This document shows, piece after piece, positions 21,913 through 63,512 of a DNA stretch of 64,000 nt (positions are counted from its first letter, which is position 1; each line of letters opens with the position of its first letter). The position numbers and the translations under genes were made by a program. This DNA comes from Vibrio sp. JPW-9-11-11. GTDB lineage: Bacteria > Pseudomonadota > Gammaproteobacteria > Enterobacterales > Vibrionaceae. The stretch is taken from contig NZ_SZQJ01000007.1 in NCBI RefSeq assembly GCF_013369335.1, forward strand, positions 124,001-188,000, written 5' to 3'. The notes under the pieces were generated by a model that was given only the letters and a program-made list of their open reading frames with translations, made no database searches and was not told the DNA's origin.

Positions 21913-21920
21913 CTCGAATA

Positions 21921-22350
<430 letters not shown>

Positions 22351-41480: not shown

Positions 41481-42302
41481 TTAATAGCCAGCAGAGGTAA
41501 AGTCAGGCTGAAAGCTGCCCGGGGCCAGTCGCTTAACTTCAGTGGTCAGGCTTCCATCTGGGAAAAGCGCTAACTCTCTCCAACCCGGAGATAACGTGTC
41601 GAGGGCAAAGTCGTCGCTGTTTGGCTTAAACTGTACACAAGTGGAAGGCGTAGCCATCACGCGAACACCTTGGTGTAGCACGTTCATATCTTGGTGGACA
41701 TGACCGCACAGTACGGCTTTCACATTACTGTGCTTTTCAAGTAGTTGCCAAAAATACTCCGCGTCTTTTAAGGTATGCTGGTCCAACCAACGACTACCAA
41801 CTAACAGCGGATGGTGGTGGAGTAACACCAACGCATGGCGCTGTGGGTATTGAGAAAGTTTGTCTTCCAGCAACTGCAGCTGTTGATCACTCAGGCGTCC
41901 ATGAGGTACACCGACCACTTGCGAGTCGAGCAAGATCATTTGCCAATGCTCCCCCAGCAACACATGCGACACTTGTTCAATCTGCTGAGATGGAAGGACC
42001 GATGCCATACTCGGCTTAAAATCGTGATTGCCCGGCAACCAATAACAGGTCTTCTTAAGTGGCTCAATCCCAGTCGCGAAACGTTGATAAGACTCCGCGC
42101 TATGATCTTGTGAAATATCACCAGTCGATAGGATGGCATCAAACGAGTTTCCTTGTTCGATAATCGCTGAAACGACCGCATTAAAGCTATCCAGTGTCTT
42201 GACGCTGAGTAGGCTCCCATCGGCGGGCTCAAACAAGTGAGTATCTGTGATTTGGACCAGCTTAATCGTGCTGCTGTCTGCTGAACTTGACGCTACTTTC
42301 AA
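41481..42302 (-). CDS. cpdA: 3',5'-cAMP phosphodiesterase CpdA
   Basis: CpdA hydrolyses cAMP and so tunes CRP-dependent transcription; it shapes growth and biofilm in Vibrio. The 273-residue metallophosphoesterase has all metal motifs: ITDTHLF, STGDISQDH, PGNHDF and LCGHVHQD. It follows yqiB by 9 bases. Confidence 0.96.
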   Translation of the reverse strand: MKVASSSADSSTIKLVQITDTHLFEPADGSLLSVKTLDSFNAVVSAIIEQGNSFDAILSTGDISQDHSAESYQRFATGIEPLKKTCYWLPGNHDFKPSMASVLPSQQIEQVSHVLLGEHWQMILLDSQVVGVPHGRLSDQQLQLLEDKLSQYPQRHALVLLHHHPLLVGSRWLDQHTLKDAEYFWQLLEKHSNVKAVLCGHVHQDMNVLHQGVRVMATPSTCVQFKPNSDDFALDTLSPGWRELALFPDGSLTTEVKRLAPGSFQPDFTSAGY

Positions 42303-45448: not shown

Positions 45449-47803
45449 TTAGCCGTCGGCTCTTTGCTTGAGCCACTGTTTAAGAATTTGGATATCATTG
45501 TCATATTCATTCTTGATCTCTTCAACCCAATCATCGATGTTTTCCCACCAAGCTGGCAAGTCTGGAGATTGGGCCTTTTGCGCGACACTTTGGATGCGCT
45601 TGAGTCCGATGGAGCCGGCTGCACCTTTTATCTTATGTGCTTCAGATACAATCCCCTCTTGGTGCTTGGCCACCATATTGGAGTCGAGCACTTGCAGATA
45701 CTCCGGCATCATGTCTTCAAACATGGTAATGCTGTCTACAACCGGTTGTGGCCCAACAATTCCCACATAAGACTCCAGCATATCCAAGTCAAGCAAACGC
45801 GTATAAATCTCATTGCCATCATCGGTCTCGGGGTCACACACTGTTTTTTGTGGCGCAGCCTGCTCAGGTACGCCTTGACTGAACTTCGCTAGCACTTCTT
45901 GGACCGCGGTGACCGATAACGGTTTACTGATCGCGTCATCCATCCCTTTGTCGAGATACTCCCGCTTGTTCTTCAACACGTTTGCTGTCAGTGCAACTAA
46001 AGGCGGTAAATTCGAGTATGTGCGCCTAAAATAGTCGGCAACATCAAAACCGGTCATGTCCGGTAACTGGATATCTAAGAACACCAGATCGTAAATCTCT
46101 GGATCGAACATTTCCATTGCTTCGCTGCCTGTCATCGCTACCGACACTTCATGGCCCATACTTTCGAGTAGTGACCGAGCTACCGTGATATTGAGTTCAA
46201 TATCTTCAACCATAAAAATGTTCAGCTCTTGGTTAGCGTGCATGTCGACAGTTTGCATTGCTGGTAGGTCGGCAATAGGAACACGAATGCTAACGGTAAA
46301 AGTGCTGCCAAAGCCCTCTTCACTGGAGACGGAAATATCACCATCCATCATATTGATCAGTTGCTTAGAGACCGCCAAACCAATTCCAGTCCCCACGGCA
46401 TGCAAGTTATCTTTATCTGATTTCACCTGATAATACATCGCAAAGATCTTATCGAGCTCCGCCTCTGGAATCCCAACCCCGCTGTCTTCTACCTCCATCA
46501 CTATGTGGGCGTAACCCTGCTCCACCTCAGCGCTAACCGTCATTACCACACCGCCTTCTTTAGTAAACTTCATCGCATTACTGATCAAGTTCCATAACAC
46601 TTGACGCAGGCGTGTCGCATCGACTTCGATTGCATTAGGAAGCTCACTTAGGCGCTCCAAGTCAAAACGGAGCCCTTTTTGAGAAGCCATCAAAGCGGAG
46701 ATACTTTCCATTTCGGCGACAAACTCTTCAAAGTTAAGAGGCGCTGGATAGAGTTCGAGTTTACGTCGATCAAACTTATCCATATCAATGATATCGTTAA
46801 AGATATTACCTAACGTGATCGCGCTGACGTTAATGGTCTGCATATGGTTGCGCTGCTCAGGGCTCAGCGGAGTATCGAGTAACATTCGGCTTAAACCGAC
46901 AATACCGTTCAACGGTGTTCTTAACTCATGACTAATGGTCGAAATAAAGGTGGTTTTGTCGCGACTGGCTTTCTCCAGCGACTCCTCATGGCGTTTACGC
47001 TCGGTGATGTCGCGACCAAATCCGACTAGACCCAAATGGCGGCCATCCTTGCTGTAAAAAGGCACTTTACGCAGTTCAAAATAATTACGTCTGCCGTCGG
47101 GGTATTCCAGCCACTGCTCGTAGGTGATAGCCTGATTATCGGCAAAGACTTTCTGGTCAGTATCCACGATTTGTTGGGCGACTTCTTTGCTGTACACATC
47201 CCAAGGGGTAAGACCGACCAGTTGACTCTCTTTTTTGCCTGTCAGCTCTTCCATGGCACGGTTGCAACCAGAGAAAACCCCATCCGCGTTGCGGTAATAG
47301 ATTAGATCGGGAGAAGCATCGATAAAAGAGCGCAGTAGCGCGGTTCGTTCGGCTAACTCAACCTGAGTTTTTTCACGTTGAAACACCTCGTTTTCGAGGT
47401 CTTTCATTGCTTCTTCACGGGCTTCTTCAGCCTTAATTCTCTCTTCGATCTCTTGATTAAGCTTAGCGATATTTTGCTGCAGCTTATGATTGAGCTCCTG
47501 GTCTCGTGAGCGCATATCTTTCAGTTTAGAGACAAGCTTAGACAAGCGTTGACGCGACTCTTCCAGTTGATCGACAACCACAGACAAAAAGTAGACCGCC
47601 CAAGGAGTAATCAACAGACCAAAAAAGACCGAGCGGACAATATCGATATCATCCACATGCCCACTAAGAACCAGCGTGATCCCCACTTGCACCACAACAG
47701 CCAGCGCCACCAACGCCAAAGCAAGCAGTATCGAAAAACGTAAAATGCCTAACTTAACAAGCAGATCAACATAATATTGGGCGAGATTTTTTATCGGCTT
47801 CAT
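45449..47803 (-). CDS. arcB: Aerobic respiration control hybrid sensor kinase ArcB
   Basis: ArcB senses the quinone redox state and phosphorylates ArcA through a His-Asp-His relay. The 784-residue protein has two N-terminal membrane segments (about 23-46 and 57-77), a coiled-coil linker (80-150), a PAS domain (155-270), the H-box SHELRTPLNG with His292, an ATPase domain (400-510), a receiver with Asp577 and an Hpt domain with His723. The relay residues correspond to E. coli positions. Cys180, one of two redox cysteines in E. coli, is present; the position of the second (241) is Tyr. Confidence 0.96.
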   Translation of the reverse strand: MKPIKNLAQYYVDLLVKLGILRFSILLALALVALAVVVQVGITLVLSGHVDDIDIVRSVFFGLLITPWAVYFLSVVVDQLEESRQRLSKLVSKLKDMRSRDQELNHKLQQNIAKLNQEIEERIKAEEAREEAMKDLENEVFQREKTQVELAERTALLRSFIDASPDLIYYRNADGVFSGCNRAMEELTGKKESQLVGLTPWDVYSKEVAQQIVDTDQKVFADNQAITYEQWLEYPDGRRNYFELRKVPFYSKDGRHLGLVGFGRDITERKRHEESLEKASRDKTTFISTISHELRTPLNGIVGLSRMLLDTPLSPEQRNHMQTINVSAITLGNIFNDIIDMDKFDRRKLELYPAPLNFEEFVAEMESISALMASQKGLRFDLERLSELPNAIEVDATRLRQVLWNLISNAMKFTKEGGVVMTVSAEVEQGYAHIVMEVEDSGVGIPEAELDKIFAMYYQVKSDKDNLHAVGTGIGLAVSKQLINMMDGDISVSSEEGFGSTFTVSIRVPIADLPAMQTVDMHANQELNIFMVEDIELNITVARSLLESMGHEVSVAMTGSEAMEMFDPEIYDLVFLDIQLPDMTGFDVADYFRRTYSNLPPLVALTANVLKNKREYLDKGMDDAISKPLSVTAVQEVLAKFSQGVPEQAAPQKTVCDPETDDGNEIYTRLLDLDMLESYVGIVGPQPVVDSITMFEDMMPEYLQVLDSNMVAKHQEGIVSEAHKIKGAAGSIGLKRIQSVAQKAQSPDLPAWWENIDDWVEEIKNEYDNDIQILKQWLKQRADG

Positions 47804-49682: not shown

Positions 49683-50642
49683 TCAGGTTATTGCGCAATC
49701 ATCAGCCTTTATTATTGGTTTTGTATATATAAACGGTTGATTTATCAACGACCCTTGAGCCCCATCTCGACTTAATGCGCGTCCTATTTCGGTCATCGCT
49801 AGCCAGCGATTTTCACACCACAAGGGGGCGAGTAACGTGGGTCTGCGCGCCGCCGAAGAAACTCGATGATAGACCACCTCTGGTGGGGTGAGTCGGATCA
49901 TTTCACTAGCAATGGCAACGTACTCATCCAGCTCAGGGGCTTGCATTCGCCCCGCTTTCCACGCTTTGGCCATGGTACTTCCCTCAACAATATGAAGACC
50001 ATGAAGCTTGATGCCATCGGTCTCCACCGCCAAAACCTGCGTTAACGTGTCGAGATTATCGGTTCGCGTTTCTTTGGGTAGGCCAACAATTAGGTGAGTG
50101 CAAACTTTGATGCCCAGTGCGCGAGCACGTCGAGTAATTTCAGCGTAACACGCGAAATCGTGGCCACGGTTAATCCGTTTAAGCGTCTGGTCATTGGCCG
50201 TCTGCAACCCCAGCTCAAGCCAAATTTCATAGCCTTGTACAACATAATCCGCCAGTAAATCTAGTACCGCATCAGGCACGCAATCAGGGCGAGTACCCAC
50301 GCACAGTCCCACAATATCGGCAGCTTCTAACGCCTGCTCATACATAGTTTTTAAAACCTGCACTTCAGCATAGGTACTGGTATAAGCTTGAAAATAGGCG
50401 AGATACTTTTTCGCTCGAACAATCTCCCCTGCTCGCTCAGTTAACTGCTGCTCGATGCTCTTAATCTGAGCTTGCTCATCGGCAAAAGAAGCCACATTGC
50501 AAAAGGTGCAGCCGCCGCGACCAATGGTGCCGTCTCTATTGGGGCAGTTGAATCCACCATGTAACGTCAGTTTATGTACTTTCTCTCCATAACGGCGTTG
50601 TAGATCTTGTCCTATGGTATTGACCAATTGATGAAGTTGCAT
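49683..50642 (-). CDS. yhcC: YhcC-type radical SAM protein (TIGR01212)
   Basis: YhcC belongs to a radical SAM family of unassigned reaction. The 319-residue protein has three clustered cysteines Cys33, Cys45 and Cys48 (C-x11-C-x2-C). This spacing differs from the classic CxxxCxxC and is a mark of the family; a radical SAM TIM-barrel follows. The gene precedes and diverges from gltB, as in E. coli. Confidence 0.9.
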   Translation of the reverse strand: MQLHQLVNTIGQDLQRRYGEKVHKLTLHGGFNCPNRDGTIGRGGCTFCNVASFADEQAQIKSIEQQLTERAGEIVRAKKYLAYFQAYTSTYAEVQVLKTMYEQALEAADIVGLCVGTRPDCVPDAVLDLLADYVVQGYEIWLELGLQTANDQTLKRINRGHDFACYAEITRRARALGIKVCTHLIVGLPKETRTDNLDTLTQVLAVETDGIKLHGLHIVEGSTMAKAWKAGRMQAPELDEYVAIASEMIRLTPPEVVYHRVSSAARRPTLLAPLWCENRWLAMTEIGRALSRDGAQGSLINQPFIYTKPIIKADDCAIT

Positions 50643-50915
50643 TGCGCACCACTAAAACGAAATAAATCTCATTAAGGTTGGTGTAATTAAATTACACTAC
50701 TGAAAAAAACCGAGGGCGAAATGTAACGATTTCAAACAGCTTGAGGGTTAAGCAAAGTCAATAAACATGCAGAAAAACTCGCTGTTAAGTAAATTGTTAC
50801 GCAAAAGTTAAACATATTAACGTTTAAAACGCGAAAAACATGGGCAACAAGCACGAGTTTTGATTGCATTGCAGGCCCAGTAAATTGTAGGATACTTACA
50901 GATTTCGCCAAATTT

Positions 50916-50931
50916 TGTGACTTTTATTACA
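50916..50931 (+). promoter_or_regulatory. CRP-like site upstream of gltB
   Basis: TGTGA-N6-TTACA differs from the CRP consensus TGTGA-N6-TCACA at one position and has A/T-rich flanks. Its centre is about 62 bases before the start predicted from the TATAAA box at 50974-50979, a distance typical of class I CRP activation. Confidence 0.45.
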
Positions 50932-51027
50932 CATTAATTCGGTGAAACGTCGGCGAAACCCTACTCCCACCTATATAAATCACTAAATTGTGAACATAAA
51001 AACAGGGTTTCCACCAAGGATTGTTTT

Positions 51028-51134
51028 TCTCGCCATATTTTTCAGCGAGAGACGGAAAGGAATCAAAGTCGCCAACCCAGGTCGACTTCGAATCATAAAA
51101 ATAATGGACAGGACGTAGAACTAGTTTCGACTAG
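51028..51134 (+). ncRNA. Structured 5' leader of gltB
   Basis: Three hairpins follow in order. TCTCGC / GCGAGA (51028-51033 with 51045-51050). AAGTCG / CGACTT (51066-51071 with 51083-51088). A perfect CTAGT-TTCG-ACTAG stem with a stable TTCG loop (51121-51134). The last one ends about 23 bases before the ribosome site. I do not recognise a known riboswitch class. The elements could simply stabilise the mRNA. Confidence 0.45.
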
Positions 51135-51170
51135 CACAATTGCGCCTATTTGAACTGGAAGGATGTATCC

Positions 51171-54100
51171 ATGGTAGATAGAGAGCAAAGTTCACAAGGT
51201 CTATATACTCCAGAGCTGGAGCATGACGCTTGTGGTATCGGTTTTGTTGCTCACCTAAAAAACCGCAAATCGCACGAGGTAGTGACGCAAGCCCTCGATA
51301 TGCTTGCAAGAATGGAGCACCGTGGTGGCCAAGGATGTGATCCTTGCTCAGGCGACGGCGCTGGCATCTTGCTGCAAAAACCGCACGAGTTTCTATTAGA
51401 AGAAGCCGTTAAGCTTGGCATTAAGCTGCCTTCTTTCGAGAAGTATGGTGTCGGTGTGGTGCTTTTCCCTAAAGACGAGCACAAACGTGCGCAATGTCGC
51501 GACATTTTAGAACGTAACGCACAGCGACTAGAGCTAGACGTAATTGGTTACCGCGTGTTACCAACCGATAACTCAATGATAGGTGCAGATCCACTGAGCA
51601 CTGAGCCACAATTTGAGCACGTATTCATTTCTGGTGGCCCAGGTATCACACCTGAAGAGCTTGAGCGTAAGCTGTACGTACTACGTAACTACACCGTTCG
51701 CGTATGTCTCGAAAGCGTGTCGAATATTGGTGATGACTTCTACATCAACTCAATGTCTTACAAGACACTGGTGTATAAAGGTCAGCTCACCACAGAGCAA
51801 GTCCCGCAGTACTTCCTCGACCTACAAAACCCAACCATGGTGACGGCACTTGCGCTTGTTCACTCTCGTTTCTCTACCAATACATTCCCGAAATGGCGTC
51901 TAGCACAGCCTTTCCGTTATATTGCTCACAACGGTGAAATCAACACAGTTCGCGGTAACCTGAACTGGATGAAAGCCCGTGAAGCGATCATCGAATCAGA
52001 TCTCTTTACTCAGGCAGAGATCGATATGCTACTGCCTATCTGTCAGGAAGGTAGCTCAGACTCATCAAACTTCGATATGGCGCTAGAGCTCCTAGTTCTA
52101 TCTGGTCGTAGCCTGCCACATGCCTTGATGATGATGATTCCTGAAGCGTGGCAAGAAAACAAAAACATGGATCCAACACGTCGTGCGTTCTACCAATACC
52201 ACGCTAATGTCATGGAACCGTGGGATGGTCCGGCATCGGTGTGTTTCACCGACGGTGTTCAAGTCGGTGCAACCCTTGACCGAAACGGTTTGCGCCCTTC
52301 TCGCTACACAGTAACCAAGGATGACTTCTTGGTAATGGCGTCTGAGTCTGGTGTTGTTGATATCGCACCAGAGAACGTTGAGTTCCGTGGCCGCCTCCAA
52401 CCAGGGCGTATCTTCGTTGCTGACCTAGAGCAAGGCCGCATCATTTCTGATGAAGAAGTGAAAGATGGCATTGCCTCTGCACAACCATACGAGAAATGGG
52501 TCGAAGAGAACCTGCTCAGCTTGAAGAAGCTTCCTGACGCGAGCAACGAATTCAACCAGCCTTCTCCAGAAAAGCTACTCCACAAGCAGCAAGCATTTGG
52601 TGTCAGCTCCGAAGAAGTGAACGAAATTATCGTACCTATGGCGAAAGACGGCAAAGAGCCACTTTCTGCAATGGGGGCTGACTGGCCGCTTGCGATTCTG
52701 TCACATCAATCTCAGCACCTATCTAACTACTTTAAACAGTTGTTTGCTCAGGTAACCAACCCGCCAATCGACCCGATTCGTGAGCGCATGGTGATGTCGC
52801 TGAACACTTACCTAGGTAAAGATCAGAACCTGCTTGCAGAGTCACCAGAACACTGTCAAAAAGTTGAACTTGAGTCTCCAGTTCTTTCTAACTCAGAACT
52901 AGAGAAGCTGCGTGCTATCGATAATGAGCACCTTCAAGCAAAAACTCTGGATATTGTATTCCAAGCAAGCGAAGACGAAGGCAAGCTAGAGCGTGCACTC
53001 AAGCGAATTTGTCAGTACGCAGAAGATGCGGTTATCGATGGTTACTCAATCATCCTTCTAACTGACCGTGCGGTTAACTCTAACCACGCTGCTATCCCAG
53101 CCATGCTGGCGGTTGGCGCAGTTCACCACCACTTAATCCGTAAAGGGCTACGTGCTAAGTGTGACATCGTAGTCGAGACGGGTGATGCGCGTGAAACACA
53201 CCATTTCGCCACTCTGGTTGGTTACGGTGCTAACGCAGTGAACCCATACCTAGTGATCGAAACTATGGTTGAGTTGCAGCGCACTAAGAAGCTTGACCCA
53301 GAAACAGACATTCGCGACCTATTTGAGAACTACCGCAAATCCATCAACGGTGGTCTACTGAAAATTTTCTCGAAGATGGGTATCTCGACCCTGCAGTCTT
53401 ACCATGGTGCACAGATCTTTGAAGCTCTGGGTATCAGCAAATCTGTCGTCGACAAATACTTCACGGGTACAGTTTCACGTATCCAAGGTCTAACCATCGA
53501 TGACATCGCAAAAGAGGTACTGGTGCGTCACCGTATCGGTTTCCCGACTCGTGAAATCCCAGTTCAAGTACTGGATGTAGGTGGTGTCTATCAGTGGAAA
53601 CAGCGTGGTGAGAAACACCTGTTTAACCCTGAGACTATCTCACTACTACAACAGTCAACTCGCAACAAAGATTACGCCCAGTTCAAGCAGTACGCGAAAG
53701 CCGTGGATGATCAAGGCGACAACGCTGCAACACTACGTAGTCAGTTAGATTTTGTTAAGAACCCAGCAGGCTCCATTCCGCTTGAAGAAGTCGAACCTAT
53801 CGAAAACATCCTCAAGCGTTTCGCGACAGGTGCGATGTCGTTCGGTTCTATCTCTTACGAAGCGCACTCTACACTAGCAGTCGCGATGAACCGCATCGGC
53901 GCGAAATCAAACTCTGGTGAAGGTGGTGAAGACCCAACGCGTTTTGAACGCAAAGAAAACGGTGATTGGGAGCGCTCTGCAATCAAACAGGTAGCGTCTG
54001 GCCGCTTTGGTGTAACCTCATACTACCTAAGCAACGCAGATGAGCTGCAGATCAAGATGGCTCAAGGCGCGAAGCCAGGTGAAGGTGGTCAGCTACCAGG

Positions 54101-55718
54101 TGATAAAGTAGATGACTGGATCGGTGCAACGCGTCACTCGACTCCAGGGGTTGGCCTTATCTCGCCACCGCCACACCACGATATCTACTCTATCGAAGAT
54201 TTAGCTCAGCTTATCTACGACTTGAAGAACGCCAACCGCGCTGGTCGTGTCAACGTCAAGCTAGTATCGGAAGCGGGTGTAGGTACCATCGCCTCTGGTG
54301 TTGCCAAAGCGAAAGCTGACGTAGTCCTAATTGCAGGTTTCGATGGTGGTACAGGCGCATCACCGATGTCGTCTATCCGTCACACAGGTCTGCCTTGGGA
54401 GCTAGGCTTGGCAGAAACACACCAAACTCTTCTGAAGAACGGCCTACGTAACCGTATCGTGGTTCAATCTGACGGTCAGATGAAAACGCCTCGAGACCTT
54501 GCAGTCGCAACGCTACTGGGTGCTGAAGAATGGGGCGTGGCAACAGCAGCGCTAGTTGTTGAAGGCTGTATCATGATGCGTAAGTGTCATAAGAACACTT
54601 GTCCTGTGGGTATCGCAACTCAGAACAAAACCCTACGTGAGCGCTTTGATGGCCGCGTAGAAGACGTTGTGACTTTCTTCCAGTACATGGCTGAAGGTCT
54701 CCGTGAAGTGATGGCAGAGCTCGGCTACCGCACTATCGATGAGATGGTGGGCCAGTCGCACAAATTAAAAGTGCGTGAAGACATCAAACACTGGAAATAC
54801 AAGAACCTAGATCTGTCTCCTGTTCTTCATATTGAGCACGCTCGTGAAGACGATGGCGTTTACAACCAGACAGAGCAAAACCACAACTTAGAAGACGTTC
54901 TCGATCGCAAGTTGATTCAAGCCGCGATTCCAGCGCTTGAGAAAGGTGAAGCCGTTAATGCGGAATTCCCTATCATCAACACCGACCGCTCTGCGGGCAC
55001 TATGCTGTCGAACGAAATCTCTAAGGTCTACAAAGACCAAGGCCTACCACAGCCAATGAACGTCAAGTTCACAGGTTCTGCCGGACAGTCATTCGGCGCT
55101 TTCCTTGCTAAGGGCGTGAAGTTCGAAGTGGAAGGCGATGCAAACGACTACTGGGGTAAAGGTCTATCTGGCGGTACGCTCGTACTTTACCCAGATGCAA
55201 ACTCAACCATAGTCGCTGAAGATAACATTGTGGTTGGTAACGTCTGCTTCTACGGTGCCACTTCGGGTGAATCTTACATTCGCGGCATGGCGGGGGAACG
55301 TTTCTGTGTTCGTAACTCAGGCGCGAAAGTCGTCGTTGAAGGTGTCGGTGACCACGGTTGTGAATACATGACCGGTGGTGTGGCTGTCATCCTTGGCTCA
55401 ACAGGTCGTAACTTCGCGGCGGGTATGAGCGGCGGTGTAGCTTACGTTTGGGATAAGTCTGGTGACTTTGAAACCAAACTCAACCCAGAGCTCGTCGACC
55501 TCGACCCAATCGAAGCAGAAGATCGTGAACTACTGAAAGAGATGCTAACCAAGCAAGTTGAATTCACAGGAAGTGAAGTCGCTAAGTCTTTCCTAGACAA
55601 CTTTGAAGCAAGCCTAGCCTCTATGGTTAAGGTGATGCCGCGTGATTATAAAGCAGTACTTCAAAAACGTAAGGCAGAAGCGCAGCAAGCACAAACGGAA
55701 CAAGTGGAGGCAGTATAA
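51171..55718 (+). CDS. gltB: Glutamate synthase large subunit, first copy (non-enteric subfamily)
   Basis: GOGAT alpha subunit: an N-terminal glutaminase domain frees ammonia that is channelled to the FMN/3Fe-4S synthase domain, where 2-oxoglutarate becomes glutamate. The 1515-residue protein begins with a short propeptide, so the mature N-terminal nucleophile should be Cys21 in HDACGIGFVAH. The 3Fe-4S cysteines are Cys1133, Cys1139 and Cys1144 (CIMMRKCHKNTC). The start at 51171 follows GGAAGGA; earlier in-frame codons lack a ribosome site. The sequence style (ELEHDACGIGF, EHRGGQGCD) is that of Gram-positive, Bacteroidetes and cyanobacterial-type GltB rather than the E. coli type. It ends overlapping gltD by one base. 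Confidence 0.95.
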   Translation: MVDREQSSQGLYTPELEHDACGIGFVAHLKNRKSHEVVTQALDMLARMEHRGGQGCDPCSGDGAGILLQKPHEFLLEEAVKLGIKLPSFEKYGVGVVLFPKDEHKRAQCRDILERNAQRLELDVIGYRVLPTDNSMIGADPLSTEPQFEHVFISGGPGITPEELERKLYVLRNYTVRVCLESVSNIGDDFYINSMSYKTLVYKGQLTTEQVPQYFLDLQNPTMVTALALVHSRFSTNTFPKWRLAQPFRYIAHNGEINTVRGNLNWMKAREAIIESDLFTQAEIDMLLPICQEGSSDSSNFDMALELLVLSGRSLPHALMMMIPEAWQENKNMDPTRRAFYQYHANVMEPWDGPASVCFTDGVQVGATLDRNGLRPSRYTVTKDDFLVMASESGVVDIAPENVEFRGRLQPGRIFVADLEQGRIISDEEVKDGIASAQPYEKWVEENLLSLKKLPDASNEFNQPSPEKLLHKQQAFGVSSEEVNEIIVPMAKDGKEPLSAMGADWPLAILSHQSQHLSNYFKQLFAQVTNPPIDPIRERMVMSLNTYLGKDQNLLAESPEHCQKVELESPVLSNSELEKLRAIDNEHLQAKTLDIVFQASEDEGKLERALKRICQYAEDAVIDGYSIILLTDRAVNSNHAAIPAMLAVGAVHHHLIRKGLRAKCDIVVETGDARETHHFATLVGYGANAVNPYLVIETMVELQRTKKLDPETDIRDLFENYRKSINGGLLKIFSKMGISTLQSYHGAQIFEALGISKSVVDKYFTGTVSRIQGLTIDDIAKEVLVRHRIGFPTREIPVQVLDVGGVYQWKQRGEKHLFNPETISLLQQSTRNKDYAQFKQYAKAVDDQGDNAATLRSQLDFVKNPAGSIPLEEVEPIENILKRFATGAMSFGSISYEAHSTLAVAMNRIGAKSNSGEGGEDPTRFERKENGDWERSAIKQVASGRFGVTSYYLSNADELQIKMAQGAKPGEGGQLPGDKVDDWIGATRHSTPGVGLISPPPHHDIYSIEDLAQLIYDLKNANRAGRVNVKLVSEAGVGTIASGVAKAKADVVLIAGFDGGTGASPMSSIRHTGLPWELGLAETHQTLLKNGLRNRIVVQSDGQMKTPRDLAVATLLGAEEWGVATAALVVEGCIMMRKCHKNTCPVGIATQNKTLRERFDGRVEDVVTFFQYMAEGLREVMAELGYRTIDEMVGQSHKLKVREDIKHWKYKNLDLSPVLHIEHAREDDGVYNQTEQNHNLEDVLDRKLIQAAIPALEKGEAVNAEFPIINTDRSAGTMLSNEISKVYKDQGLPQPMNVKFTGSAGQSFGAFLAKGVKFEVEGDANDYWGKGLSGGTLVLYPDANSTIVAEDNIVVGNVCFYGATSGESYIRGMAGERFCVRNSGAKVVVEGVGDHGCEYMTGGVAVILGSTGRNFAAGMSGGVAYVWDKSGDFETKLNPELVDLDPIEAEDRELLKEMLTKQVEFTGSEVAKSFLDNFEASLASMVKVMPRDYKAVLQKRKAEAQQAQTEQVEAV

Positions 55719-57187
55719 TGGGTAAGCCTACTGGATTTTTAGAACATGGTCGTGAGCTTCCTGGCAAGATCGATCCATCCGTTCGTATTGAAAACAACAA
55801 AGAATTCGTTCTGAACGAAGAGTTTGGTGACAAGATCAATACTCAGGCTTCTCGTTGTATGGACTGTGGTGTGCCTTTCTGTCACAACGGTTGCCCGATT
55901 GGTAACATCATCCCTGAGTTCAACGACGCCGTATACCGTGACAGCTGGGAAGAAGCGTGGAACATTCTAAGTTCAACCAATAACTTCCCTGAGTTTACGG
56001 GGCGTGTCTGTCCTGCTCCATGTGAAAGTGCGTGTGTTCTTGGCATTAACCAAGATCCAATCACCATCTGTAACATCGAGAAAACCATTGTTGAAACAGC
56101 GTACCGTGAAGGGTACGCAAAACCTAAGACGCCTCGTTCACGCACGGGTAAAACGGTTGCAATCATTGGTAGCGGCCCTGCAGGTCTTGCCGCAGCAGAG
56201 CAGCTAAACAGCGCTGGTCACTCAGTAACGGTATTTGAGCGTGACGAAAAAGTCGGTGGTCTACTGCGCTTCGGTATCCCAGATTTCAAACTGGGTATGG
56301 ACGTGATTGATCGTAAAATCAACCTAATGGCAGAAGCTGGCGTTGAGTTCAAGGTCAACCAACACATCGGTGTGGATGTCAATGCGCAGCAACTACGTCA
56401 AGAGTTCGATGTGGTGCTTCTAACGGGCGGCTCTACTGTGCCACGTGACCTACCGGTTCCGGGACGTGAGTTGAAAGGCGTTCACTTCGCAATGGAGTTC
56501 CTTGGTCAAAACAATCGCCGCGCAAACAACATGGATCTTAAAACTGAAGAGATTCATGCCAAAGGTAAGCATGTTGTGGTTATCGGTGGTGGTGATACGG
56601 GTTCTGACTGTGTGGGTACCTCAAACCGTCATAAAGCCGCAAGCGTGACTCAAGTGGAAATCATGCCGATTCCACCAGAGAAGCGCCCAGCAAATATGCC
56701 TTGGCCTCAGTACCCAATGATTCTTCGTACTTCGACTTCTCACGAAGAAGGTGTCGATCGTCATTGGAATATCTTAACTAAAGAGTTCATCGGTAACGAT
56801 AAAGGTGAAGTCACAGGTCTACGTCTTGCTGATATCGTTTGGGAAGACGCTAAACCAGGTGAGCGTCCAAGCTTTAAAGAAGTGGAAGGCAGCGAGCGTG
56901 TCATTCCTTGTGATATGGCGTTCTTAGCAATGGGCTTCCTACATCCAGAACCAACCGGTGTACTTGCTCAGCTAGATATCAAACTTGATGAGCGCGGTAA
57001 TGTCGCAACCGAAGGATACGCGACGAACCAAAAAGGCGTGTTTGCCGCAGGTGATATGCGCACCGGTCAATCTTTGGTGGTGCGTTGTATTAACGAAGGC
57101 CGTGAATGTGCCATTGCGATAGACCAATATCTGATGGGAAATTCTCATCTAGAGGCAAAAGCAGATTCACTCATGCTCTCTGCTTAA
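55718..57187 (+). CDS. gltD: Glutamate synthase small subunit, first copy
   Basis: GOGAT beta subunit feeds electrons from NADPH through FAD and 4Fe-4S centres to GltB. The 489-residue protein has the N-terminal cysteine set Cys47, Cys50, Cys55 and Cys59 (CMDCGVPFCHNGC), a second set near 98-106 (CPAPCESAC), the FAD motif GSGPAG (151-156) and the NADPH motif GGGDTGSDC near residue 290. The GSDCVGTSNRH segment and the length place it in the Bacillus/Bacteroidetes-type subgroup, matching its GltB partner. The start codon shares a base with the gltB stop (TAATG). Confidence 0.95.
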   Translation: MGKPTGFLEHGRELPGKIDPSVRIENNKEFVLNEEFGDKINTQASRCMDCGVPFCHNGCPIGNIIPEFNDAVYRDSWEEAWNILSSTNNFPEFTGRVCPAPCESACVLGINQDPITICNIEKTIVETAYREGYAKPKTPRSRTGKTVAIIGSGPAGLAAAEQLNSAGHSVTVFERDEKVGGLLRFGIPDFKLGMDVIDRKINLMAEAGVEFKVNQHIGVDVNAQQLRQEFDVVLLTGGSTVPRDLPVPGRELKGVHFAMEFLGQNNRRANNMDLKTEEIHAKGKHVVVIGGGDTGSDCVGTSNRHKAASVTQVEIMPIPPEKRPANMPWPQYPMILRTSTSHEEGVDRHWNILTKEFIGNDKGEVTGLRLADIVWEDAKPGERPSFKEVEGSERVIPCDMAFLAMGFLHPEPTGVLAQLDIKLDERGNVATEGYATNQKGVFAAGDMRTGQSLVVRCINEGRECAIAIDQYLMGNSHLEAKADSLMLSA

Positions 57188-57614: not shown

Positions 57615-60600
57615 ATGGCTCTATATGATCCTCGTCTTGAGAAGGACAACTGTGGATTTGGCTTGATTGCACACATGGAAGGTGAGCCTAGCCACAAACT
57701 AGTCCGCACCGCTATTTCAGCACTTGATCGCATGACACACCGTGGTGGTATCGCCGCCGACGGAAAAACCGGTGATGGTTGTGGTCTATTACTACAAAAG
57801 CCCGATTCCTACTTACGCCTAATTGCCGAAGAAAACGGCTTTAATCTTGGCAAACAGTATGCTGTAGGAATGATTTTCTTTAGCCAAGACGCCGACAAAG
57901 CAGCTCAGGCTCAGCAGGTTGTGAATCAAGAGTTGGCCAAAGAGACCTTAACTGTTGCAGGGTGGCGAGAGGTTCCAATCAATCCAAGTGTGCTTGGCCC
58001 GATCGCAGTAGACTCGTTACCGAATATTCAGCAAGTCTTTATTTCCGCGCCAGCAGGATGGCGCGAGCGCGACATTGAACGACGCCTGTATATCGCTCGC
58101 CGCCGTATTGAAAAACAGATTGTTGAGGATAATGATTTCTATATCTGTAGCCTATCCACTCAAGTGATGGTCTACAAAGGTTTGTGCATGCCAGCCGACC
58201 TGCCAAGATTCTATCTTGACCTCGCAGATCTGCGCATGGAATCAGCCATCTGTTTGTTCCACCAGCGTTTTTCAACCAATACTCAGCCGCGTTGGCCGTT
58301 AGCGCAACCGTTCCGCTACTTAGCGCATAACGGTGAAATCAACACCATCCAAGGTAACCGTCAATGGGCGCGGGCGCGAGCTTATAAATTTGCCTCTCCG
58401 CTATTGCCAGATCTGCAAACCGCAGCCCCCTTTGTCAACGAAACTGGCTCGGATTCCTCTAGCTTAGATAATATGCTGGATCTGTTTCTATCCGGTGGCA
58501 TGGATATTTTCCGTGCGATGCGCATGCTGGTTCCGCCAGCTTGGCAAAACCACCCAGACATGGATCCTGACTTACGCGCCTTCTACGATTTCAACTCCAA
58601 GCATATGGAACCGTGGGATGGCCCTGCCGGTATTGTTCTGTCTGACGGTCGTTATGCCGCTTGTAACCTCGACAGAAACGGCTTGCGCCCTGCTCGCTAT
58701 GTGATCACCAAAGACAAACTGATCACCCTAGCTTCTGAAGTCGGCATCTGGGACTACGCGCCTGATGAAGTGGCCGAGAAAGGTCGGGTTGGCCCGGGCG
58801 AACTATTGGTGGTGGATACTCGCCGCGGCAAACTGTGGCAATCGAGCGAGATCGATAACGATCTCAAAGGACGTCACCCTTATCGCGAATGGATGGACAA
58901 TAACGTTCATAAATTAACGCCTTTCTCACAGCTGCCAGAAGATCAAGTCGGCGAACGCAGTTTCGACGATGATCAACTCAAGACCTTCCAAAAGCAATTT
59001 GCAATGAGCAATGAAGAGGTCGACCAAGTTCTTCGCGTACTCGGTGAAATGGGTCAAGAAGCGGTGGGCTCGATGGGTGACGATACGCCAATGGCCGTAC
59101 TCTCTTCTAAAGAGCGTTTGGTCACTGACTACTTCCGTCAAAAATTCGCTCAGGTGACCAACCCGCCTATCGATCCGTTACGTGAAAAGCACGTCATGTC
59201 ACTGGCAACCAGTGTCGGACAAGAGATGAATGTGTTCTGCGAAACTGACGGTCACGCTCATCGAGTGACATTTGACTCGCCAGTGCTGCTGTACTCCGAC
59301 ATGAAACAGCTATTAGAGCTGAGCGATGATCACTATCGCAGCAGCGTGATCGATATTAACTATGACCCGAGCGAAAAAGATCTCAAACAAGCGATCCTAG
59401 ACCTCTGTGATCACGCAGAAAGTCTAGTTCGTGACGGGACCGTATTGGTGGTTTTATCCGATCGCAACTTGAGCAAGTCAACGCTTCCTATTCCTGCAGC
59501 GATGGCTGTCGGCGCAGTACAAACTCGCTTAGTCGAAACAAACCTGCGTTGCGATGCCAATATCATCGCCGAAACTGGTTCGGTGCGCGACCCTCACCAA
59601 TTTGCGGTTCTACTCGGTTTTGGCGCAACCGCTGTCTACCCTTACCTCGCATATGAAGCATTAAGTAAGATGATTGATGATGGTGGCCTCAATAAGAGCT
59701 ACCGCGAAGTCATGCAAAACTATCAATACGGGATCAATAAAGGCCTGTATAAGATCATGTCTAAGATGGGCATCTCGACTGTCGCCTCTTATCGCTGCTC
59801 ACAGTTGTTTGAAGCAGTTGGCCTTGGCCAAGAACTGGTTGACCTTTGCTTCAGTGGGGTAACCACCCGTATTCAAGGCGCGAGTTTCGAGGACTTCCAA
59901 CAAGACTTGTTTAACCTGTCGCGCAAAGCTTGGGCTAAGCGTAAACCGATTGAACATGGTGGCCTGCTTAAGTATGTCCATGGCGGCGAATATCATGCGT
60001 ATAACCCCGATGTCGTCAGTACACTGCAGCAAGCGGTGAAATCTGGCGAATCATCAGACTACAAAACCTTTGCAAGCCAAGTAAATCAACGTCCTACCGC
60101 GATGCTGCGTGACTTGATGCAATTGAAAAAGTCGGACAAACCTTTACCACTCGAAAAAATTGAGCCGAGTACTGAACTGTTCAAGCGTTTTGACTCAGCT
60201 GCAATGTCGATTGGTGCGTTGAGCCCTGAAGCTCACGAAGCGCTAGCGACGGCGATGAACCGTTTGGGTGGATACTCCAACTCTGGTGAAGGTGGTGAAG
60301 ATCCAAGACGCTTTGGTACCGAACGCAACTCGCGTATTAAACAGATCGCCTCTGGGCGTTTTGGTGTCACACCTCACTACCTAACCAACGCAGACGTGTT
60401 GCAGATTAAGGTGGCACAAGGGGCTAAGCCAGGTGAAGGCGGACAGTTACCGGGGCATAAAGTCACCGCTGAAATTGCCAAACTGCGCTACTCAGTTCAA
60501 GGCGTCACACTAATTTCACCGCCGCCTCACCACGATATTTACTCTATCGAAGATTTGGCCCAGCTGATCTTCGATTTAAAACAGGTCAATCCTAAAGCCC

Positions 60601-62078
60601 TCGTCTCGGTGAAATTGGTTTCAGAGCCCGGTGTCGGCACCATCGCCACCGGTGTGGCTAAAGCCTATGCCGATTTAATTACCATTTCAGGTTACGACGG
60701 CGGTACTGCGGCGAGCCCACTCACCTCGGTCAAATATGCTGGCAGCCCTTGGGAACTGGGACTGGCAGAAACTCAACAAGCGCTGGTTGCCAACGGTCTG
60801 CGCCACAAGATTCGCCTGCAAGTTGATGGCGGCCTTAAGACCGGACTCGACGTCGTTAAAGCCGCAATTTTAGGCGCAGAAAGCTTTGGCTTTGGTACCG
60901 CACCTATGGTGGCGATGGGATGTAAGTTCTTGCGCATTTGTCACCTCAACAACTGTGCAACGGGTGTCGCGACTCAAGATGACACCTTACGTCGCGAGTA
61001 TTTCAAAGGCTTGCCAGAAATGGTGATGAACTACTTTGTTGGCCTTGCTGATGAAGTACGCGAGCTACTTGCAGAACTTGGGGTAGAGAAGCTAACCGAT
61101 CTGATTGGCCGAACAGACTTGCTTGAAGCAGTTGAAGGCATGACAGCCAAACAGAGCAAGCTCGACTTATCGAGCATTCTTGAAGCTCCCGTTTCTGGAC
61201 AAGGGCATCCACTGTTCTGGAGCGAGCCAAACGCACCCTTTGATAAAGCAGAGCTCAACAGCAAGATTGTCGATGAAGCCATGCACGCCATTGAAGCTAA
61301 ACAGTCGATTGATTTGTTTTACAAGATCATCAACACCGACCGCTCGGTTGGTGCGCGCTTATCGGGTGAGATTGCAAAACGCTACGGCAACCAAGGGATG
61401 GCGGCCTCGCCGATCAAACTTCACCTTGATGGTACCGCAGGCCAGTCATTTGGTGTATGGAATGCTGGCGGAGTTGAACTGTATCTCACCGGCGATGCCA
61501 ACGACTACGTCGGAAAAGGCATGGCTGGCGGTAAAGTAGTGATCAAACCTCATCAAGGTACGGCGTTTAAATGTAATGAAGCAACCATTATCGGTAACAC
61601 CTGTCTATACGGCGCTACGGGTGGCAAACTATTTGCTGCTGGCACCGCAGGCGAGCGTTTTGGCGTTCGTAACTCTGGCACCATTGCCGTCATTGAGGGT
61701 GCAGGCGACAACGCCTGTGAATATATGACAGGCGGTATTGTTGCCATTCTTGGCGCTACTGGGGTGAACTTTGGCGCGGGGATGACGGGTGGTTTCGCCT
61801 ACGTGCTCGACCAGAATGATGACTTCCAAGGTCGTGTCAATAATGAATCGGTCGAAGCAGTTGCGTTGTCGGACCTTTATATCCATCAAGAACACTTGCG
61901 TGGTTTGATTGCCGAACACCTTGAAGAGACAGGGTCGGTACATGCCGAGGACATATTGGCCAACTTTGATGAATGGATTCCAAAGTTCTATTTAGTGAAA
62001 CCGCAAGCGGCTGATCTAAATACGCTGCTCGGTCACCAAAGTCGCAGCGCTGCTGAACTGCGCGTTCAAGCCCAGTAA
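57615..62078 (+). CDS. gltB: Glutamate synthase large subunit, second copy (enteric type)
   Basis: A second GOGAT alpha subunit of 1487 residues. The catalytic nucleophile is Cys13 ([12 protein letters not shown]), so a 12-residue propeptide is removed. The 3Fe-4S cysteines are Cys1103, Cys1109 and Cys1114 ([12 protein letters not shown]). Sequence blocks throughout, and the C-terminus [13 protein letters not shown], match E. coli GltB as I recall it far better than the first copy does. AGGGAGAA lies about 5 bases before the ATG. Transcription is probably independent, since a terminator lies upstream. Confidence 0.96.
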
Positions 62079-62096
62079 GTCATGGAGGATGTATAA

Positions 62097-63512
<1,416 letters not shown>

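Follow-up and report, generated by a model that had tools for sequence, protein, structure and literature searches.

The first glutamate synthase gene of Vibrio sp. JPW-9-11-11 is preceded by a long leader, located downstream of a site resembling the target of CRP. The locus raises the question of whether the gene is controlled at the promoter or on the mRNA, and by which factor. The analysis was centred on a stretch of 64,000 nucleotides, called here the window (contig NZ_SZQJ01000007.1, positions 124,001 to 188,000 of the forward strand).

The gltB1 operon and the structure of its leader

The genes following the leader encode the two subunits of glutamate synthase.

51171..55718, plus strand: gltB1, glutamate synthase large subunit (NF008730), with an ATG behind a conserved Shine-Dalgarno sequence
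55718..57187, plus strand: gltD1, glutamate synthase small subunit (TIGR01317)

A second operon made by gltB and gltD (57615-63512) resides directly 3' of gltD1. A similar tandem gltB pair, Vc2373 and Vc2376, is described for V. cholerae in the available passages of PMC2374795, according to which mRNA was detected, in one study, only for Vc2373, the first gltB of the pair. The 80 closest named loci encoding GltB1 relatives (88-98% identity) belong to Vibrio, Aliivibrio and Photobacterium, one being assigned only to Vibrionales. The comparisons rest on 124 upstream sequences (123 loci and the window); 14 of these, with a query identity of 80% or less, were left out. The remaining 110 gltB1 upstream regions, the window among them, yielded an alignment of 75 leaders, after removal of those sharing at least 95% identity with a retained sequence.

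A block well kept across the gltB1 upstream regions marks the far side of the promoter.

50885..50900, minus strand: conserved block TTGTAGGATACTTACA, reading TACAAT, promoter-like, on this strand

The block is probably part of the promoter of the divergent gene at 49683-50642, which encodes a radical-SAM protein of the MnmL/YtqA type (TIGR01212). The first-pass annotation had placed cpdA, the gene for 3',5'-cAMP phosphodiesterase, inside the window, and the gene was indeed found at 41481-42302 on the minus strand (NF008359). The window also hosts arcB (45449-47803) and a bacterial class A RNase P RNA (21920-22349, minus strand).

Most of the gltB1 leader is an already known family, Rfam RF02982.

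51009..51112, plus strand: full-length match to the RF02982 (gltS RNA) model, 97.7 bits, E 2.7e-14 (gathering cut-off 47.5)

The family was reportedly described in a 2017 paper, and the match precedes, in the window, a glutamate synthase gene. In a literature search that left most subscription papers outside reach, no paper was found pairing the term gltS RNA with glutamate synthase, naming RF02982 or a gltS motif, riboswitch or leader, or joining RF02982 or gltS RNA to CsrA. Among 196 genomes of 48 genera, searched with stricter filters by which weak matches can be lost, RF02982 was identified in 108, once in each, and all of them belong to the genus of the window (118 genomes). Of the 110 genomes of the genus in which gltB1 was found, 108 have the element ahead of it, and in all loci retrieved for these matches gltB1 lies 3' of the element. 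Ten members of the genus have no RF02982 match. In seven of them, one of which is 73% complete, the only GltB shares 35-40% identity with GltB1, another has no match at all, and two (G094 and G111) keep GltB1 (87 and 92% identity) behind a degraded leader. The RF02982 element and gltB1 thus occur together.

Three hairpins were delineated in the leader, with pairs counted on a sequence-only alignment of the 75 leaders, less than 95% identical to each other.

51028-51034/51044-51050, plus strand: P1 hairpin, 94.5% of cells paired, 5 of 7 pairs with double changes
51022-51024/51052-51054, plus strand: outer extension of P1, three pairs predicted by RNAalifold, the whole of P1 measuring 51022..51054
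51066..51088, plus strand: P2 hairpin, the weakest helix, 72.3% of cells paired, 8 of 8 pairs with double changes
51112-51117/51141-51146, plus strand: closing stem of P3 (element 51112..51146), 82.8% of cells paired, 6 of 6 pairs with double changes

Standard pairs fill 82.8% of the cells of the three helices together, versus 25.8-45.8% in slid controls. Double changes were counted in 204 cells, against a mean of 70.3 in shuffles made without correction for relatedness; none of 500 shuffles reaches 204. Of the 21 pairs, 19 show double changes, a number that 3 of 500 shuffles reach; for two of the five measures used, 3 and 16 of the 500 shuffles, respectively, came up to the observed value. 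RNAalifold, run on the same alignment, recovers P1, and not P2 and P3. The P3 stem resides outside the RF02982 match, which ends at 51112, and features one A x C mismatch in the window.

The first-pass annotation was thus right in placing ahead of gltB1 a three-stemmed leader of about 185 nt. The idea that it is a post-transcriptional element is strongly supported by the RF02982 match, the covarying stems and the genus-wide presence. The same annotation had proposed to search relatives for the leader and for compensatory changes, and the stems proved to be conserved. The third stem, described there as capped by TTCG, exists, but its conserved part corresponds to 51112-51117/51141-51146, and the interval 51121-51134 is a variable tip, of which the TTCG hairpin is the form found in the window. 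Two further pairings were noticed by eye. In predicted folds of some leaders (L030, L058), the U-rich P1 loop could pair with the GGAAAG found after P1, replacing P1 (51034-51060 in the window), and a Shine-Dalgarno hairpin might be formed by 51156-51159 with 51168-51171.

GGA triplets and the CsrA reading

The hairpins alternate with GGA triplets, conserved in most leaders.

51018..51020, plus strand: GGA1, putative CsrA site, GGA in 72 of 75 leaders
51059..51061, plus strand: GGA2, putative CsrA site, GGA in 73 of 75 leaders
51106..51108, plus strand: GGA3, putative CsrA site, GGA in 66 of 75 leaders
51157..51163, plus strand: GGAAGGA, GGA4 and GGA5 over the gltB1 Shine-Dalgarno sequence, both GGA in 75 of 75 leaders

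The order of the elements is GGA1-P1-GGA2-P2-GGA3-P3-GGA4/5, the last at the Shine-Dalgarno sequence, and the distance from GGA1 to the ATG varies from 137 to 204 nt in the 110 upstream regions. Linkers beside the GGA are nearly constant in length (standard deviation 0-0.9 nt, 1.6 nt between P2 and GGA3). Hairpins vary in length by a standard deviation of 0.8 nt (P1) and 2.9 nt (P2), and P3 measures 21-86 nt (75 leaders). GGA accounts for five of the 13 triplets most conserved in the leader. Another four share letters with the GGA pair of the Shine-Dalgarno sequence, and the remaining ones are GAA at 51055, kept in 73 of 75 leaders, and GTA, TAT and ATC, located 3' of the Shine-Dalgarno sequence (67-68 of 75). 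Two more GGA of the window show lower conservation (at 51054, 54 of 75 leaders; at 51111, 19 of 75), and the letters preceding the three upstream GGA are variable in the 75-leader alignment. The loops of P1-P3 hold no GGA in the window, the upstream triplets being all found between stems.

The sequence ANGGA occurs five times in the 185 nt of the window leader, the highest number among 299 sampled leaders of the genome; when its dinucleotides are shuffled, 11 of 2000 sequences reach five. Plain GGA occurs seven times, a count reached in 3 of the 299 sampled leaders, itself included, and in 82 of 2000 shuffles. The sampled leaders, drawn from 400 kb of genome stretches and from the window, precede ORFs of at least 150 codons starting from ATG; the leader of the second gltB features two GGA and one ANGGA. 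The GGA count alone is only moderately unusual, and conservation is the stronger point. One leader (L031) has lost GGA1-3 and retains gltB1; it comes from one of the two gltB1 genomes under the Rfam cut-off. The mean unpaired probability in the 75 folded leaders is 0.53, 0.45, 0.66, 0.56 and 0.40 for GGA1 to GGA5, versus 0.45 overall. The predicted exposure is accordingly mixed, GGA1, GGA3 and GGA4 being above the mean and GGA5 below.

From this pattern we infer that the conserved GGA triplets, GGA1 and GGA2 included, are contacts for CsrA. The gltB1 leader can be viewed as a gltS RNA prolonged up to the start codon, and it seems likely, by analogy with V. alginolyticus, that it serves this RNA-binding repressor as an array of binding sites. 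Four GGA stretches, the last on the Shine-Dalgarno sequence, would alternate with three hairpins serving as spacers. CsrA dimers would hold the Shine-Dalgarno GGA and one upstream GGA, presumably bridging them, and CsrA, once bound, would block ribosome binding and speed mRNA decay. GltBD levels would be low until CsrB-type small RNAs titrate CsrA away. The genome of the window encodes one CsrA, and CsrB-family RNAs (RF00018) were identified in it, three above the cut-off and one below.

CsrA was first suggested by the GGA pattern, and reports on V. alginolyticus were found afterwards. According to the available passages of PMC12298160, CsrA of this species binds with high affinity gltB RNA from -100 to +100, and in the csrA R6H mutant gltB and gltD are increased more than 10-fold as RNA and more than 70-fold as protein. 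In corresponding passages of an earlier paper (PMC8624728) the rise is more than 8-fold, and the gltD mRNA remaining at 4 min is 23.2% in the wild type versus 3.1% when CsrA is overexpressed. Neither Rfam nor gltS is mentioned in the main text of the two papers; gltB is absent from the main text of a V. cholerae CsrA paper (PMC7858070), as from that of PMC8989286. The source strain presumably behaves as V. alginolyticus with respect to CsrA and gltB. The V. alginolyticus gltB is taken here as the orthologue of gltB1, an assumption, because the passages of the two CsrA papers leave the gltB copy unstated.

Leaders of two other genera were also compared. In Aliivibrio, the GGA linkers are kept in all six leaders fetched. 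The four of these compared with Rfam at the gathering cut-off gave no RF02982 match; by a permissive scan four leaders, two of which are identical, scored 42.9-44.8 bits (E 0.0025-0.0062; cut-off 47.5). In Photobacterium, where 8 of 19 leaders were compared with Rfam at the gathering cut-off, none of the eight matched RF02982, nor did the six of them that were also submitted to the permissive scan. Yet in all 19 (L176-L202, about 740-1000) a segment of 27-29 nt before the Shine-Dalgarno sequence is predicted to fold alone into a hairpin with GGA in the loop, the stem sequence of which differs between species. A second stem, GRAC...GUYC, is also found in 19 of 19 leaders, with GGA in the loop in 14 of 19, and Photobacterium leaders share an invariant TAGGGA linker. 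CsrA classically recognizes GGA displayed in the loop of a hairpin, a placement that is frequent though not required. The GGA sites thus persist across genera, whose helices differ.

Some points weigh against the CsrA reading, among them the mixed exposure of the GGA, the loss of GGA1-3 from L031 and the gltB copy left unstated in the CsrA papers. GAA at 51055 and the triplets ATC, TAT and GTA are kept as well as the upstream GGA, and GGA4 and GGA5 weigh less as evidence, because a Shine-Dalgarno sequence contains GGA in any case. The leader might be recognized by a partner other than CsrA, such as Hfq together with small RNAs or some further RNA-binding protein, or might form a ribosome stand-by structure, CsrA acting only at the Shine-Dalgarno sequence or indirectly. 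The U-rich P1 loop, which is likewise well kept, would fit this possibility, as would the exposure of GGA1 and GGA2, not clearly predicted, and the published gel-shift fragment, which from the passages cited spans, at the spacing of the window, only the 3' part of the array (GGA3-GGA5). We hold it to be unlikely: it leaves unexplained both the GGA kept at three upstream places and the GGA-loop hairpins found in 19 of 19 Photobacterium leaders.

The gltB1 promoter and other modes of control

Upstream of the leader, the following elements were examined.

50916..50931, plus strand: CRP-like site TGTGACTTTTATTACA, matching the consensus at 9 of 10 positions and with its centre at about -62.5 from the predicted start
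50941..50948 and 50952..50959, plus strand: two copies of GGYGAAAC, GGTGAAAC and GGCGAAAC, 11 bases apart, with no conservation of the pair
50972..50980, plus strand: predicted -10 element TATATAAAT, with TATAAA at 50974-50979

Transcription would start near 50986, as predicted from the TATAAA sequence, and TATATAA is found close to the -10 position of the window in 62 of 110 gltB1 promoters. The near-consensus CRP-like site at a class I distance that had been noticed earlier is real at the sequence level, a 9/10 match being reached by none of 100 base shuffles of the window promoter. A recognizable -35 is missing, as also noticed: the best hexamer of the window matches at 3 of 6 positions (spacer 16-18), and the best hexamers of the 110 promoters match at 1 or 2 positions in 78, at 3 in 27 and at 4 in 5. 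CRP matches were counted in full-length promoters, as taking 300 nt upstream of gltB1 would cut 34 of the 110 short. Sites with a score of at least 8/10 are found in 40 of 110, all located 93-96 nt before GGA1 (94 in the window), and a score of 8 is attained anywhere in 430 of 11000 shuffled promoters. The mean best match is 7.1 in the 110 promoters versus 6.1 in the shuffles. Since they occupy one fixed position, the CRP-like sites of those 40 promoters are likely real.

A promoter-level explanation would have CRP, bound at about -62, activating a promoter devoid of a -35, the leader being a passive structure. The 9/10 site, the fixed distance to GGA1 and the poor -35 featured by nearly all promoters are in line with it. 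However, 70 of 110 promoters have no match better than 7/10. In six V. cholerae-like promoters the best match is 6/10, at another distance and without TATATAA, while the leader persists, and a passive structure would not retain the GGA. We therefore consider this explanation distinctly improbable. A CRP ChIP site of V. cholerae labelled gltB appears, without the CRP-regulated mark, in the source table of PMC6050953, as far as the accessible part of that paper goes. The site, at first sight similar to the first GGYGAAAC repeat, was considered as support for CRP at gltB1 and discarded, as its 16-mer starts 141-142 nt before gltB2 in four of six V. cholerae-like genomes and is absent from the other two. 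The peak most likely belongs to the second gltB, and is therefore uninformative on the gltB1 promoter.

The CRP-like site lies where a class I site would, and CRP activation is plausible for the source species, not as a general rule. Hence the activator-dependent promoter of the first-pass annotation holds only in part, the site being confined to 40 of 110 promoters and missing from the V. cholerae-like clade. A CRP-class promoter may set transcription in the source and some related species; to see CRP control of gltB1 as an extra of the source species is reasonable but unproven.

The GGYGAAAC repeats, to which the same annotation had drawn attention, are present in the window at a distance of 11 bases, but they are not conserved as a pair among relatives. 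In promoters in which the eight columns align without gaps, the full 8/8 sequence is found in 5 of 77 for the first copy and in 3 of 103 for the second, and agreement between the two 8-mers at six positions or more is seen in 8 of 70. The phased repeats hardly look like a functional pair; the notion of an OmpR/PhoB-type box replacing the -35 was dropped, as the pair is not conserved. Well kept within 50950-50982, instead of the repeats, are TCGGTGATAT (columns at about 60-80%) and CCCACC.ATATAA (mostly about 90%) in the 110 promoters. We know of no regulator for either sequence, the -10 part being the only one for which we have a reading.

The proposal of the first-pass annotation to probe the leader with glutamine, glutamate and 2-oxoglutarate suggests a metabolite-sensing element. 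A riboswitch for one of these compounds, or a similar one, would control gltB translation. Riboswitches typically look like this leader, which is structured, covaries, occurs throughout the genus and precedes a single biosynthetic operon, and RF02982 is typed by Rfam only as cis-regulatory. Conserved sequences in the leader are, however, largely GGA in linkers, the length of P3 varies between 21 and 86 nt, only 1 of 75 leaders features a terminator-like hairpin, and Photobacterium has GGA hairpins yet gave no RF02982 match at the 8 of 19 loci compared with Rfam. The riboswitch is in our view highly improbable; the GGA in the linkers and the CsrA binding described in the V. alginolyticus passages point to CsrA instead. 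Transcription attenuation via a leader peptide is next to negligible: an open frame of at least 8 codons is found right after GGA1 in 52 of 75 leaders, but its length varies widely, its start abuts the GGA with no space for ribosome binding, and neither a leader peptide nor an intrinsic terminator found support, the terminator-like hairpin being confined to the one leader mentioned.

Significance and comparison with known systems

The CsrA reading can be carried further, in a tentative form to which we give a modest chance. The gltS RNA might be an ordered CsrA scaffold, in which the hairpins act as rulers only and the helices are swapped between genera, and the gltB mRNA may even function as a CsrA sponge. 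If this were true, hairpins would bring successive GGA linkers together for bridging by CsrA dimers, helices would have been exchanged between Vibrio/Aliivibrio and Photobacterium with retention of the CsrA sites, and an abundant, multi-site gltB mRNA may couple the assimilation of nitrogen to the entire Csr network. With CsrA as the candidate partner, an Rfam family lacking a stated regulator gains a specific, testable function, and the published CsrA effect on glutamate synthase gains a candidate RNA element. The case also suggests caution with orphan cis-regulatory RNAs, as covarying stems can mimic a riboswitch when much of the conservation is made by protein-binding tags.

Among the closest known systems is CsrA control of gltB in V. 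alginolyticus (PMC12298160, PMC8624728), where the operon is of a like kind and the regulator is the one that we propose. In that species direct binding was demonstrated, for a region limited to -100 to +100 of a gltB copy that the passages do not specify.

The gltS RNA of Rfam is the same element, its full-length match being well over the cut-off and followed by a glutamate synthase gene. The RF02982 entry names no regulator, and its model stops at 51112, the P3 stem and the Shine-Dalgarno GGA pair of the window lying beyond.

Class I CRP-dependent promoters are exemplified by the lac type. The window is alike in having a near-consensus site at about -62 and a poor -35; it differs in that the gltB1 site, predicted from sequence, is present in only part of the genus.

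Leaders repressed by CsrA/RsmA, such as those of E. coli glgC and pgaA, have several GGA sites, one of which lies on the Shine-Dalgarno sequence. The window leader resembles the E. coli leaders in carrying several GGA, one at the Shine-Dalgarno sequence. It differs from them because its upstream GGA reside between stems, not in loops, and because the whole set is kept as an ordered array.
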